The position numbers and the translations under genes were made by a program. DNA of 35,762 bases from IMG/VR virus record IMGVR_UViG_3300021600_000013, positions 1 through 35,762 of that record; one strand, written 5' to 3'. The DNA is from a virus. Under the pieces are notes generated by a model that was not told where the DNA came from, made no database searches, and saw only the letters and a program-made list of their open reading frames with translations. Position 1 is the stretch's first letter, and the number at the start of each line of letters is the position of its first letter. Positions 1,249-26,057 of this stretch are shown here, one piece after another.

Positions 1249-1896
1249 TTATTTTGCAGCACTAACTGCGACCACCCCAATAAGTACCCCAACACCGACC
1301 TTAAATGCAGTTGTCTGATGCCACTTCTTGTCTTGCTTGATGTAAATATTACTCATGCCGGTGATTGCCACATTCGGATTGTCGACTCTCATGCGGACCA
1401 CTGTGTCCTTCTTCTTCAGCAACCTATTTACGAAGCCAGTGCGCATGGTATCACCAACAGCATACGTGAACTTGGCAGGGATAGAGATGCTGTCGAGCTG
1501 CAACCATCCCAAGCGATTAATCATGCCGCCAATTGTGTACCACTCGGTGGTCTTAAGGAATGGTTTTGGCAGTTGTATGTAGGGCTTGCCTTGAATCATC
1601 ACTGTATCGCCCAATTTAATCTGCGTTTTGATCACTGTCCTGGTCTCAATCTTAACCACCTCAACAGCGTTCTTGACTTTGACTTCTAACTCCGCAATCT
1701 GTTGCGCCTGTTTTGCCGCATCGGAGTTCGCCTGCGCTATTACTTTGCGCTGTGAGGCGATAAGTATTGAATCCTCGTACATCGTGTGCTTAAGGCGATA
1801 ATCAGACTGCACCCCATCGGAGTTGCATTTAATTAGCACTAATAGGATTGCAATAAATGCCGCAAGTATTATCAATTCAAATCGTACAGATGCCAT
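1249..1896 (-). CDS. Membrane-anchored coiled-coil protein, spanin/Rz-like lysis accessory
   Basis: A 215-residue protein with an N-terminal hydrophobic segment (about residues 6-24) followed by a charged helical region rich in Ala, Gln, Glu and Lys (about 45-90), then a globular part. It ends in a second hydrophobic stretch, FKVGVGVLIGVVAVSA. The N-in anchor plus periplasmic coiled coil fits inner-membrane spanins (Rz), and the gene is the last of the lysis block after endolysin and holin-like genes. No lipobox-bearing outer-membrane partner is visible inside or next to it. A C-terminal hydrophobic segment is unusual for Rz and could make it a one-piece spanin. The role is inferred from topology and position. 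Confidence 0.5.
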   Translation of the reverse strand: MASVRFELIILAAFIAILLVLIKCNSDGVQSDYRLKHTMYEDSILIASQRKVIAQANSDAAKQAQQIAELEVKVKNAVEVVKIETRTVIKTQIKLGDTVMIQGKPYIQLPKPFLKTTEWYTIGGMINRLGWLQLDSISIPAKFTYAVGDTMRTGFVNRLLKKKDTVVRMRVDNPNVAITGMSNIYIKQDKKWHQTTAFKVGVGVLIGVVAVSAAK

Positions 1897-2059
1897 CTTT
1901 TATAAGTTTTATAAGTGTTTGCGATGATTCCCAAAATAATCGTTTATCCTTGAGCTCTGCTTGCAATATTTGCAGGGCCACACATACTGGCATGCCACGC
2001 TCAATCACATACCAAGCGGCAACATTAACAAGTCTGATATCCGCCTCCTGGTCAGTCAT
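1877..2059 (-). CDS. Hypothetical 60-residue protein coupled to the kinase-like gene
   Basis: Sixty residues, mostly helical, no membrane segment. Its ATG overlaps the stop of the PAS-HisKA gene as ATGA (2059-2056), implying translational coupling. It overlaps the start of the spanin-like gene by 20 bp. It contains ADIRLVNVAAWYVIERG and a Lys/Asp-rich C-terminus. I do not recognise a family. Its position makes it the natural partner of the upstream PAS-HisKA protein, but no receiver-domain acidic pocket is present in so short a chain. Confidence 0.6.
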   Translation of the reverse strand: MTDQEADIRLVNVAAWYVIERGMPVCVALQILQAELKDKRLFWESSQTLIKLIKDGICTI

Positions 2060-2622
2060 AACTCGCGAGCTGCTTTCTTAATTAGCACCTTGATTGCATC
2101 ATCAAGCTTGACAACCGATGTATGAATCATCTTAAGGAGGTCACGCTTTTCGTTGTCATTTGACATAGGGTGGTTAAGCATCAACTGCACAAGCCCAGAT
2201 ATATTGGTGAGTGGTTGACGGATCTCATGGCTGAGCATAAATCGAAACTCTTCGAGCAGCAACTTCTGCCGCTCATAGTTATGCGAGTTGATGGATGTTA
2301 CATCTACTAACTGGATTCCGACAAAGTGCAATGTCTCTTCAATTGCAAAGCAGTTCCAGATATTATATCTGTCAATGGTATTCTTAAGCCGAGTGCGAGC
2401 ATACACACGCGATGGCTCAGGCGAATGCAATCGAGCCAGTTGAACTGCCTTAATGAAATCTTCTTGATCACCTTCAATGCTTATTATGTCACTTATTTTG
2501 CTTGGCTTAATGTGGCTTGAGTAATTCTTAAACAGCTCATTGCTTGACACAATAAGCCCATGCTCATCAGTAACCACATAGAAGAGGTCAATGGAATTCT
2601 CTAAGATGAAGAGCGAAGACAT
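2056..2622 (-). CDS. PAS-HisKA protein: sensor histidine kinase fragment without ATPase domain
   Basis: The product has a PAS-like sensor module (starting about LENSIDLFYVVTDEHG, ending FVGIQLVDVTSI) followed by a HisKA dimerisation and phospho-acceptor helix pair. The H-box is FMLSHEIRQPLTNIS, where the canonical kinase motif is F-x-SHE-x-RTPLt. The acceptor His is residue 150 counting from an upstream in-frame ATG at 2676, or 132 from the start chosen here. The chain stops about 56 residues after this His, so the HATPase_c domain (N, G1 and G2 boxes) is absent and no neighbour supplies it. I chose ATG 2622 because the 2676 start would overlap the upstream gene by 76 bp. It sits inside the lysis cassette. 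It could dimerise with, or take phosphate from, host kinases; it cannot autophosphorylate alone. Confidence 0.8.
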   Translation of the reverse strand: MSSLFILENSIDLFYVVTDEHGLIVSSNELFKNYSSHIKPSKISDIISIEGDQEDFIKAVQLARLHSPEPSRVYARTRLKNTIDRYNIWNCFAIEETLHFVGIQLVDVTSINSHNYERQKLLLEEFRFMLSHEIRQPLTNISGLVQLMLNHPMSNDNEKRDLLKMIHTSVVKLDDAIKVLIKKAAREL

Positions 2623-3083
2623 TGATTGAGTTCGCTGCAAAGGTTTGACCAAGCTGACATCGAGCTCCATGCCCATTGAGCCGTGAGGTATATTGTAAAA
2701 GTCAACAGCATGCCCATGATTGGAGCATCCATTGTCGGCTTATATTCTGCAAACTCAGTGCGAGGCTTAATGATAATCTTATGCTCTGGCTTAGGAGAAA
2801 GCAAGAATGCAGATGTTGTCGGTGTAATTGAATCGCTTGCGTAGATTTGTTGCATCGGCTGTGGCTCTGGCACTATGTCTGTTGGTGGCATCTCGTAAGT
2901 TTGCCCCCATTGATTAGTGCAATAGTTCTTCCCAAAGATAGTAAATTTCTCCATTGACTGATAAATCACTTGCGGCTTAACCTCAATGCGATGATGATGC
3001 GTATGGAGCTTGCAGCCAATACCCACCACGCAACCATCATCGAGGGTTGTGAGCACTTGTACTGAGTCTTTGCCGTCATCCAT
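2601..3083 (-). CDS. Hypothetical lysis-region protein with C-terminal membrane segment
   Basis: About 160 residues from the ATG at 3083, which overlaps the end of the holin-like gene (ATGGATGA, stop at 3078-3076); an upstream ATG at 3140 would overlap that gene by 65 bp. The N-terminal half is soluble and has a His cluster (HTHHHR). The middle is rich in Pro and Thr. The C-terminal part has a hydrophobic segment around MGMLLTFTIYLTAQWAW. That suits a membrane-tethered protein between holin and spanin functions, but no family is recognised. It overlaps the PAS-HisKA gene by 22 bp. Confidence 0.6.
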   Translation of the reverse strand: MDDGKDSVQVLTTLDDGCVVGIGCKLHTHHHRIEVKPQVIYQSMEKFTIFGKNYCTNQWGQTYEMPPTDIVPEPQPMQQIYASDSITPTTSAFLLSPKPEHKIIIKPRTEFAEYKPTMDAPIMGMLLTFTIYLTAQWAWSSMSAWSNLCSELNQCLRSSS

Positions 3084-3276
3084 TGTCACTGCTTTTAGGT
3101 ATGTATCCTGCGGCCACCATTGCGGCCACAATTGCTGCAAGTGTCTCTGTTGTAATCTGCTTGAAAATTAAAGCAAAGACTGATCCGAGTATAACAAGTG
3201 AGCCAATGGTTGGCCTCCAGTACTTGAGAAGTATATCAAGCACTTGTTTGAACTTGCTAACTGGTTTCCTTGTCAT
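3076..3276 (-). CDS. Small holin-like membrane protein
   Basis: Sixty-six residues: a basic N-terminus (MTRKPVSKFKQ), a strongly hydrophobic segment around IGSLVILGSVFALIF, then a second, weaker Ala-rich segment around TLAAIVAAMVAAGYI, and a short polar tail. Size, topology and the position just downstream of the lysozyme gene fit a class II/III holin. Holins have little sequence conservation, so the call rests on topology and context. The start overlaps a 33- or 51-residue small ORF by 20 bp. Confidence 0.6.
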   Translation of the reverse strand: MTRKPVSKFKQVLDILLKYWRPTIGSLVILGSVFALIFKQITTETLAAIVAAMVAAGYIPKSSDNG

Positions 3277-3412
3277 TGCCCCACATGTGATTAAAAACGT
3301 AAGATGATTTTAATTTCTCAACAAACTGCTCAAAGGTAAGGTCCATCTCGTCAAGCATGACAAATGGCTCTGTCTTATGCCTTTTAAGGTATGCCTTATA
3401 CAACTGCTGCAA
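3257..3412 (-). CDS. Small ORF between lysozyme and holin-like genes
   Basis: An open frame ends at the TAG at 3257-3259. From ATG 3358 it gives 33 residues (MLDEMDLTFEQFVEKLKSSY...); from TTG 3412 it gives 51 residues and would overlap the lysozyme stop. The upstream extension KAYLKRHKTEPFV reads like a natural helical lead-in, so the longer form with a TTG start is plausible. It fills an otherwise empty gap of about 120 bp in a genome with almost no gaps. The product is amphipathic and soluble, with unknown function. Confidence 0.45.
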   Translation of the reverse strand: MQQLYKAYLKRHKTEPFVMLDEMDLTFEQFVEKLKSSYVFNHMWGNDKETS

Positions 3413-14581: not shown

Positions 14582-14692
14582 TTAAGCAGCTTGTTTAATT
14601 GGATTTTTTGCAGTGCCGATTGTAGCTCCTGCCCAATTGCTGCCGCATTTTTTGCCGCCGCACATCTTGATTACTTTTGCTTTTGGTTTCAT
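14582..14692 (-). CDS. 36-residue Cys-motif peptide
   Basis: ATG 14692 overlaps the stop of the methyltransferase gene as ATGA, and TAA 14582 falls 4 bp before the portal start, so this ORF exactly fills the gap. The peptide is very basic, MKPKAKVIKMCGGKKCGSNW at its start, with a C-x4-C motif followed by GSNWAGATIGTAKNPIKQAA. Exact fit, coupling and good codon use argue that it is real. Possible roles are a metal-binding or nucleic-acid-binding peptide, a small virion component, or a substrate of the neighbouring enzymes. Nothing in the sequence decides between these. Confidence 0.7.
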   Translation of the reverse strand: MKPKAKVIKMCGGKKCGSNWAGATIGTAKNPIKQAA

Positions 14693-15258
14693 CGGTGTAG
14701 TATTGAGAGCCCTCGACCTTCAGTGGTGTTGAGCGTTACATTCTTATAACCAAAGTGAGCTGCATATTCTACAAGCTTTTTTGGTCCATCAAGGTGAATG
14801 GTGTCATGGTAAACAATCACACCACCTCTTGCAACAAGTTTCTCCACAAGCTTGAACTCGGGAAGTATTGCATTCCATGAATGGTCAGCGTCAACAAAGA
14901 TAAGGTCAAAATGATTCTTAGGTAGCTTACCCAATTCATCAAGTGAGTTGCCTAAGATAAAATCAATTGCCTTATTGCCTTCTGACATGTACAGCTTTGT
15001 CGCATCGGTGCGATAGTCATTGATGTCGATGCCGACATATAGCCCACCTTTTGGCAATGCCTTGATAAGATGCTGCGATGTCTCGCCCTCAAAGACTCCA
15101 ATCTCAAGCACACTGCTATACTTAGACATCTTCATCAGCGATGCCATGAAAGCACCGCATTCATCCTCGGAGTTCCAGTCATTGCGAGCAACCTCGGTGA
15201 ATGTCTCTGTTGTTACAATCTTCTTAGGTCTGCCCTTCTTTGGTTTATCGTTTTCCAT
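14689..15258 (-). CDS. Class I SAM-dependent methyltransferase
   Basis: 189 residues. An AT-hook-like start, KPKKGRPKK (6-13), leads into a Rossmann methyltransferase with motif I VLEIGVFEGETS (50-61), the motif II acidic residue in GLYVGIDIND (D78), and FDLIFVDADHSW (118-127) followed by GGVIVYHDTIH (145-155). FVDADHSW and HDTIH are typical of the Methyltransf_24 / CmcI-like family, which modifies sugars or small metabolites rather than DNA; no DPPY-type motif is present. It overlaps the glycosyltransferase gene by 14 bp. Methylation of a sugar added by that enzyme is an attractive inference. Confidence 0.85.
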   Translation of the reverse strand: MENDKPKKGRPKKIVTTETFTEVARNDWNSEDECGAFMASLMKMSKYSSVLEIGVFEGETSQHLIKALPKGGLYVGIDINDYRTDATKLYMSEGNKAIDFILGNSLDELGKLPKNHFDLIFVDADHSWNAILPEFKLVEKLVARGGVIVYHDTIHLDGPKKLVEYAAHFGYKNVTLNTTEGRGLSILHR

Positions 15259-24454: not shown

Positions 24455-24783
24455 GGGATTAGTATAGGATTTAGCCCAACGGATGCAGCTGAGAATGATA
24501 TACACTTGTAGGTCTCTGAGTCGATAGTTAGATCTAATCGATCGTAGCAGTTTTCGCATTGTGTTGCCCATATCGTATATCCTTGTAGTGGGTCGAGCTG
24601 CACTCCATCAATCAGAATAAATCCCCCATCACTCACAACTTCAAACTGTTGTATATTCTGTGTTGCATTGTGCTGAACCGAGATGTAGTAAGTGTCATCA
24701 GCTAAGCCAACATTGTAAACTATCTGAGTCAAGCAAGCATTGATATAACTGCCTGCATCATAACATGGTGTACATACGCTCAT
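24451..24783 (-). CDS. Structural-type protein after the large terminase
   Basis: 110 residues from ATG 24783, overlapping the terminase stop as ATGA. Beta-rich, with Cys pairs at the start (MSVCTPCYDAGSYINAC) and later (CENCYDRL). Composition resembles the beta-rich virion proteins of this genome. A small tail or neck component is plausible. No family is recognised. Confidence 0.6.
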   Translation of the reverse strand: MSVCTPCYDAGSYINACLTQIVYNVGLADDTYYISVQHNATQNIQQFEVVSDGGFILIDGVQLDPLQGYTIWATQCENCYDRLDLTIDSETYKCISFSAASVGLNPILIP

Positions 24784-26057
24784 AGGTATCGCTTTAAGAT
24801 TGCGTTGACAAAGTAACGAAAACAATCCAAGAAGTCAGCACGCTCGGATAAGATTCTTCTGTTGCTCTTGATAATGCTGCCGTTGGCATCGCACTGCACT
24901 TGCTTAGCATCGAACACAAACCCCTTGCACCTTACCGAGTTGGCTCGGATGTCAAGCTTGCGCAGTGCTGCATTGCAATCAATGCGGCTGTTGTAGTGCG
25001 TTGGATTAGCCGGTATGATGATCTGCGAGTCGGATAGGTGCAGCCGCCGCTTGATCTGAGTGTAAGCACTCGAGTTGTCACGCTGTTGCACTGTGCCACC
25101 TTTGCCCATCGCATCGCCCGTCAATCTCAACAGGCCCATCGGAATACCCATGCGCTCTACATGATCGCAGAACGCATCAACGCTTCCCTTCTCAATCTTA
25201 ATCTCGTCAACCACCACGCAGCCCCTCGGTAGCTGTTGTATGACCAATGCGCAGAGTGGGTTGATGTTGAAGTCGACTGAGATGAATATAGGTATGTTGC
25301 GATTGAGCACCACGCTATCATCGATGTGCCTATCGTCCTGCCACTCGTACAAGAACGGATTAGCAACATCATCCAAGATGTCCCAATCGCCCTCCACGAA
25401 TCTCTGGTACTGGACAGGCGGCAACTCCTTCAAGCTCTCAAGGTACTCGGCAGGGATATGTGGGTTGTCGGTTATCTTCGATGGTATGTAGCTCCACCGC
25501 TCAGGTAGGCTGTTGTCTCGGTAGCGATCATAGATGATTGACTTCACCCAGTTGTTGGCAGGGTTGCACGTTGCAAGGCAAACGATGGGCGGCTTGCCAT
25601 GCGCCTTGTTCCAACTGCCGATGCGCTCCTGTACCTTGTAGAACGTAACCTCTTGCAGCTCGTTAACCTCATCGAGCCCTGCGCCGTTGATCTCTAATCC
25701 ACGAAACCTGTTGAGGTCCTTGTCATCGTCAAAGCTTTCCGCCATGAAGATCAGCTCACTGTCGTTGTTGAACGTCACCACATTCGTGTCTCTGTTCCAA
25801 CTCTTGATGTGAGCATTGAGCCCATCGCTGAGCAGTCCAGTAAAGCTTGGGAACGTTGTACGCTTAAGGTCGGGCAAGCTCTTACGAATGATTGCCCATC
25901 GACTGCCGCCGTAGTGCAGTGCCAGATGGCTGATGGTAAGCAGGAGCCAGTAAGTCTTGCCGCCTCGAATCGCGCCACCAAAAACAATCACACGCTTCTC
26001 GCCATTAATCGCCTGGTCAAATGCAACTGTCTGTGTCTCGGTCAGCGTATAGCTCAT
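24780..26057 (-). CDS. terL: Terminase large subunit
   Basis: 425 residues. The ATPase has Walker A GGAIRGGKT (27-35), Walker B INGAGLDEV (123-131, with D129 and E130) and a coupling-type motif ATCNP near 162-165. The C-terminal RNase H-like nuclease shows SVDFNINP (D262), LTGDAMGKGG (D315) and a final acidic site in ERADFLDCFRYF. Both activities needed for headful or site-specific packaging are intact. It overlaps the small terminase gene by 4 bp and is followed by tail rather than portal genes. Confidence 0.95.
   Translation of the reverse strand: MSYTLTETQTVAFDQAINGEKRVIVFGGAIRGGKTYWLLLTISHLALHYGGSRWAIIRKSLPDLKRTTFPSFTGLLSDGLNAHIKSWNRDTNVVTFNNDSELIFMAESFDDDKDLNRFRGLEINGAGLDEVNELQEVTFYKVQERIGSWNKAHGKPPIVCLATCNPANNWVKSIIYDRYRDNSLPERWSYIPSKITDNPHIPAEYLESLKELPPVQYQRFVEGDWDILDDVANPFLYEWQDDRHIDDSVVLNRNIPIFISVDFNINPLCALVIQQLPRGCVVVDEIKIEKGSVDAFCDHVERMGIPMGLLRLTGDAMGKGGTVQQRDNSSAYTQIKRRLHLSDSQIIIPANPTHYNSRIDCNAALRKLDIRANSVRCKGFVFDAKQVQCDANGSIIKSNRRILSERADFLDCFRYFVNAILKRYL

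Follow-up and report, generated by a model that had tools for sequence, protein, structure and literature searches.

PAS-containing sensor kinases of the HisKA class, such as the protein in PDB entry 3a0r, have a PAS domain followed by a DHp (HisKA) helical hairpin. In HisKA proteins, the two activities depend on different residues: the kinase step requires the acidic residue directly after the histidine (H+1), which phosphatase activity can do without, and the reverse holds for the Thr or Asn at H+4; in RapH, a single Gln suffices as the phosphatase residue (PMC3510030). In Spo0B-type phosphotransferases, the histidine acts as a carrier and the phosphate is supplied by partners (PMC11210211). 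Among phages, the Rap-Phr system of the Bacillus phage phi3T is predicted to inhibit Spo0F-P and ComA-P (PMC8027211). In the present study, we analyzed a viral DNA of 35,762 nucleotides (IMG/VR record IMGVR_UViG_3300021600_000013; hereafter the window, meaning this whole stretch), in which a gene for a PAS-DHp protein lies among the lysis genes (Table 1). The phage protein shares the order PAS then DHp, and the same H-box, with PAS-HisKA kinases, but differs from them in having no ATP-binding domain and no membrane segment, and in the Gln that replaces Thr/Asn at H+4. Spo0B and stand-alone histidine phosphotransfer proteins resemble it in the proposed working mode, that of a partner-dependent histidine carrier; a PAS sensor domain and a place in a lysis block set the phage protein apart from the Spo0B type. 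Rap-Phr of phi3T is comparable in that a phage protein is predicted to act on a host phosphorelay (PMC8027211), but it has an unrelated fold (TPR), works by another mechanism in other hosts, and is regulated by a peptide.

Table 1. Positions in the window of the PAS-DHp gene, its parts and the neighbouring lysis-block genes
Feature	Position	Strand	Basis or remark
PAS-DHp gene	2056..2622	minus	188 aa + stop; start ATG 2622-2620
PAS domain	2302..2592	minus	residues 11-107 of 188; AlphaFold2 fold and PDB PAS matches, Pfam PAS_9 weakly
DHp (HisKA) helical hairpin	2065..2286	minus	residues 113-186; Pfam HisKA, model helices, kinase matches
Codon of predicted phospho-acceptor His132	2227..2229	minus	within H-box EEFRFMLSHEIRQPLTNI
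60-aa helical protein	1877..2059	minus	start overlaps PAS-DHp stop by ATGA
DUF6549/Rz-like protein, possible spanin	1249..1896	minus	weak family matches, N-terminal hydrophobic segment
160-aa protein	2601..3083	minus	22-nt overlap with PAS-DHp start; weakly hydrophobic C-terminal stretch, hydropathy marginal
Holin-like protein, 66 aa	3076..3276	minus	one hydrophobic segment; no family match
51-aa protein	3257..3412	minus	between lysozyme and holin-like gene, variably present
Endolysin (phage lysozyme)	3396..3890	minus	Pfam and PHROG; exact start uncertain

The initial annotation had placed the gene at 2056-2676. An open reading frame of 206 codons is indeed present there on the minus strand, but its start had to be corrected. 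In almost every relative this longer frame is interrupted by stop codons located between its residues 7 and 14, and the ATG at its residue 19 (position 2622) is invariant across relatives; therefore, we take this ATG as the start. The length of the protein is exactly 188 aa at 122 of 125 loci, and 186 aa in the third of the three clades described below. The best reading is that of a soluble protein which, unlike the 3a0r-type kinases, has no membrane segment. It is probably dimeric, as would be expected of a protein forming a DHp dimer.

An AlphaFold2 monomer model made with 47 input sequences has PAS topology at residues 11-107, with pLDDT mostly 69-85, and solved PAS domains in the PDB superpose on it with Z up to 13.8 and an rmsd of 2.1 Å over 95 residues (VIA-align). 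This model supersedes an earlier one from 26 close sequences, which was too poor (pLDDT 55). When 47 diverse members were scanned with Pfam, PAS_9 matched below its cut-off, with a best E of 0.005 and in 5-6 members only. Thus, the PAS fold is clear in the predicted structure and stays below the Pfam cut-offs by sequence. Five residues of this domain (His37, Pro40, Arg72, Trp89 and Asn90) are invariant family-wide and might point to a pocket for a ligand or cofactor; the codon of His37, at window positions 2512-2514, lies in a YxSHIKP loop.

For the second half of the protein, Pfam HisKA (PF00512) matched residues 129-177 above its gathering score (37.4-37.6 bits against 26.9, E 2.4e-9 to 2.7e-9), and the domain was matched in each of 47 diverse members. 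Among solved structures, histidine kinases match residues 98-182, and the best PDB profile match is the PAS-DHp part of the sensor protein 3a0r (residues 97-181, E 6e-5). The model has helices at 113-149 and 156-186, with low confidence there (pLDDT about 50-67); the identity of this half is therefore taken from the HisKA and 3a0r profile matches despite the low-confidence model. The protein ends 56 residues past His132. All of this agrees with the initial description of a PAS-like module and an H-box with a stop about 56 residues on, and both the profile search and the monomer model that it called for gave supporting results, at the confidence noted for each half. His132, Glu133, Arg135 and Pro137 are unchanged in 128/128 sequences (127 distinct relatives and the window), so that the proposed survey of the histidine in related phages turned out in its favour. 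The residue at H+4 is Gln136 in 127 of these sequences and His in the remaining one; the Thr or Asn required by HisKA phosphatases is absent from the phage family. An invariant block, residues 122-141, lies on helix 1. In addition, an almost invariant C-terminal tail (L..KKA.R), conserved from residue 180, extends beyond the Pfam HisKA match (residues 183-186 correspond to window positions 2065-2076) and may be a specific contact or an end cap.

The profile search detected no HATPase_c domain in the PAS-DHp gene or its neighbours, as the initial annotation had claimed. The domain was also absent from the whole window and 13 related records (20-37 kb, most of them genome-length), and the same search was positive in all 14 control genomes. 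A hidden adjacent ATPase domain, the finding named beforehand as one that would speak against the claim, was not found in these records. Since the ATPase is absent, the protein, judged by its domains, is not a histidine kinase. Furthermore, no receiver domain (Response_reg, PF00072) was found in the window or the 13 related records; without a cognate receiver domain, these 14 phage records do not hold a complete two-component system.

To describe the family, IMG/VR was scanned with four different members, which gave 287, 111, 163 and 98 matching stretches in overlapping sets. The sequences form three clades: the members of the window clade are 73-97% identical, those of the second and third are 55-59% and 60-62% identical to the window protein, respectively, and identity between clades is 50-62%. 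The length is 186-188 aa throughout, and 55 of the 188 positions are invariant among the 127 distinct relatives and the window, the variable ones lying in the loop and in helix 2. The dN/dS values against the window are 0.04-0.14, which are rough ratios because dS exceeds 1 for distant pairs. Of 23 long records picked for the similarity of their terminase, the gene is found in 22. The remaining one (L229, 29 kb) has no match to the lysozyme or the DUF6549 protein of the window either, and its lack of the gene is therefore uninformative. By these measures the gene is intact and kept by selection, in line with the earlier argument that its intact retention speaks for a function. Relatives were not found among 50,697 phage or 72,556 plasmid records with annotation (best E 0.6). 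In GTDB genomes, scanned twice, nothing closer turned up than the DHp of two Mucilaginibacter proteins (41%), and a whole-length profile gave nothing at E 1e-15 in 395 Bacteroidota genomes, with the 8 best candidates per genome scored and without a positive control. The phage group that carries the gene is large, uncultured and common in IMG/VR.

The position of the gene is constant as well. The order lysozyme, holin-like, 160-aa, PAS-DHp, 60-67-aa and DUF6549 is the same in all three clades. In the window clade, the first four genes of this order are present at 80/80 loci and the small 60-aa gene at 79/80, the remaining locus being cut by a contig end; the small gene is also found at 76/76 loci of the second clade and 18/18 of the third. 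Where the flanks allow it to be seen, the second clade has the holin-like gene at 78/78 loci and the DUF6549 gene at 66/66. The 51-aa gene occurs at 39/80 close loci and at none of 79 in the second clade, and because this gene comes and goes, the constancy of the block is not simply a lack of change. In the second clade, the identity of PAS-DHp, about 56%, is close to that of the endolysin (53-55%) and the holin-like protein (58-61%) and far higher than that of the 160-aa protein, which at about 27% is fast evolving there. The endolysin is well identified (Pfam Phage_lysozyme, E 9.8e-42; PHROG endolysin, E 1.6e-55). The spanin-like label of the DUF6549 protein is weak (DUF6549 below cut-off at E 1.8e-4, PHROG Rz-like at E 0.015, and a hydrophobic N-terminal segment by hydropathy), and so is the holin-like label, which is drawn from size and position. 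Thus, the earlier placement between holin-like and spanin-like genes holds as a fixed position in three clades, but less so in the names of the flanking genes. The reported coupling to a 60-residue protein was borne out by the ATGA overlap and by the retention of that gene in all three clades. Judging from position, the PAS-DHp protein is probably made together with the lysis genes and expressed late.

One possible explanation of these features is that the protein is a sensor and phospho-acceptor that works only with host two-component proteins and is made with the lysis genes, a reading to which we give somewhat less than an even chance. His132 would receive its phosphate from a host sensor kinase, whose ATP-binding domain would act on it either in trans or within a mixed dimer; alternatively, the phosphate would flow back to it from a host response regulator. 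A host two-component pathway would then be diverted or rewired late in infection, depending on the signal to which the PAS domain responds, and envelope stress would be the natural guess for the target pathway. The host ATP-binding domain seems the best source of phosphate because the His-Glu pair is invariant and the phage has no ATPase. Transfer from kinase to histidine is favoured since Glu133 is kept and H+4 has Gln in place of Thr/Asn, and back-transfer from a response regulator is less favoured since the Glu is unnecessary for it. By the same inference, from the His-Glu pair and the missing Thr/Asn, a phospho-acceptor would be favoured over a canonical phosphatase. Among the roles put forward in the initial annotation, namely a dominant-negative partner, a phosphate sink and a sensor for lysis timing, the sequence results do not single out any one. 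A variant in which host kinases charge the histidine of the sensor, and host state together with the PAS signal gates the timing of lysis, is quite unlikely in our estimation. If host kinases are the partners, the lysis block of the phage would be directly linked to host two-component signalling.

Conservation of the H-box can also be compatible with a binding surface without phosphorylation. In histidine kinases, the helix-1 face of DHp contacts partners, and it is this face that the invariant block 122-141 covers. The phage DHp might thus be a decoy that dimerises with host two-component proteins or fills the site of a response regulator, and the lack of any phage-encoded partner in the 14 records fits this as well; a decoy, however, would tolerate changes of His132 or Glu133, none of which occurs in 128 sequences diverged to 50%, and we consider it rather unlikely. 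We hold a similarly low opinion of the possibility that the protein binds the 60-aa or the holin-like protein and releases it upon a change sensed by PAS, for instance in redox or energy state, phosphorylation being secondary or absent. The unbroken order with the lysozyme, holin-like, 60-aa and DUF6549 genes in three clades and the ATGA overlap with the 60-aa gene would suit such a timer of lysis, but neighbourhood indicates co-transcription at most, and this role alone leaves the chemistry residues of the H-box unexplained. Could Gln136 at H+4 instead position a water molecule and strip phosphate from a host regulator, as in RapH? Gln136 is nearly universal in the family (127/128), one Gln is enough in RapH (PMC3510030), and Rap-Phr of phage phi3T is predicted to inhibit Spo0F-P and ComA-P (PMC8027211). 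In HisKA phosphatases, on the other hand, this position is occupied by Thr or Asn (PMC3510030), and such activity would not need the invariant Glu133, which makes this reading improbable. These four readings, that is, host partnership, timing of lysis, decoy and phosphatase, are not fully exclusive of each other. The missing ATPase half might also suggest a functionless remnant of a captured histidine kinase. This we regard as very nearly negligible and have rejected, along with any decayed fragment, in view of the constant length, the low dN/dS and the 55 invariant positions in three clades; moreover, the gene goes with the lysis region wherever that region occurs.

The nearest DHp found in cellular genomes was the C-terminus of an ATPase-less Mucilaginibacter protein. 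Searching 198 Bacteroidota genomes and two Mucilaginibacter genomes with a DHp profile gave 49 loci that were examined. At 34 of them the protein ends 51-74 residues after the His, a set whose members are not all independent and were chosen by similarity to the query. Pfam scans of ten found receiver-PAS-HisKA, GAF-PAS-HisKA and PAS-only arrangements without HATPase_c; the DHp of L138, L311 and L126 falls short of the Pfam thresholds. In the ATPase-less group, H+4 is never Thr/Asn and H+1 is acidic (Glu) in 13/34, compared with an acidic H+1 in 14/15 and Asn or Thr at H+4 in 10/15 of the complete-looking kinases. In the phage family, the invariant Glu at H+1 goes together with a Gln at H+4, and the phage DHp is scored about equally by the profiles of both host groups (68 and 66 bits at best). 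Its domain content (PAS and HisKA, an end 56 residues past His132, no HATPase_c) fits the ATPase-less architecture, which is not unique to phage since Bacteroidota chromosomes also hold such proteins. Going by domain order, this chromosomal group is the closest in architecture to the phage protein. Bacteroidota proteins such as L138 (203 aa), L304 (327 aa) and L312 (329 aa) likewise have PAS then HisKA and no HATPase_c, end about 51-74 residues past the His and have no Thr/Asn at H+4; unlike the phage protein, they are chromosomal, several have a receiver or GAF domain, and the H+1 acid is present in 13/34 and not always. The set includes L304 (724-1704), L312 (745-1731), L300 (733-1752), L296, L308, L138, L311 and L126, all on Bacteroidota chromosomes; it also includes TPR-DHp proteins, and the acid at H+1 is often lost. 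A host ATPase-less DHp profile matched no relative in viral contigs, in a weak search with one narrow pattern. No description of the chromosomal group was found in the open papers searched; the phage gene also points to chromosomal proteins whose function is apparently undescribed.

Phage interference with a host phosphorelay is already known in another form (Rap-Phr), as are viral proteins annotated as histidine kinase or PAS. In the one library of open papers that was searched, no description was found of a phage-encoded phospho-acceptor module without its own kinase. What is new here is a HisKA sensor protein that lacks its kinase half, is encoded by a phage and has a fixed place within a lysis block. 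A Foldseek search of a viral model library returned other viral PAS and histidine-kinase proteins with modest scores. R9ZZL0 of Cellulophaga phage phi19:1 and several proteins of uncultured Caudovirales, 165-205 aa long, have PAS-like predicted folds, and some small viral PAS-fold proteins are annotated as histidine kinase; on their models, these small proteins could be further kinase-less sensors.

The primase of the window has a BT4734-like domain (PF08800), and the nearest primases from isolates are those of Flavobacterium, Cellulophaga and Nonlabens phages; therefore, the host is likely a member of Bacteroidota. In one relative (G031), the PAS-DHp gene is split over both contig ends, a sign that the genome, of about 35 kb, may be circular or terminally redundant, although the IMG/VR class is linear. 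Given a genome of about that size, many of the records are probably near complete. No Rfam matches or tRNA were found in the window. The start region of the terminase (window positions 24780-26057) is shifted in some of the relatives L201, L204, L210, L241 and L270: either the match changes frame, from residues 1-31 to a second stretch that begins at residue 25 or 31 and runs to 425 (an extra 41 nt), or the frame has 13 extra codons. In addition, the gene at window positions 14689-15258, which is surrounded by virion genes, encodes an O-methyltransferase domain (Methyltransf_24, E 4e-17).
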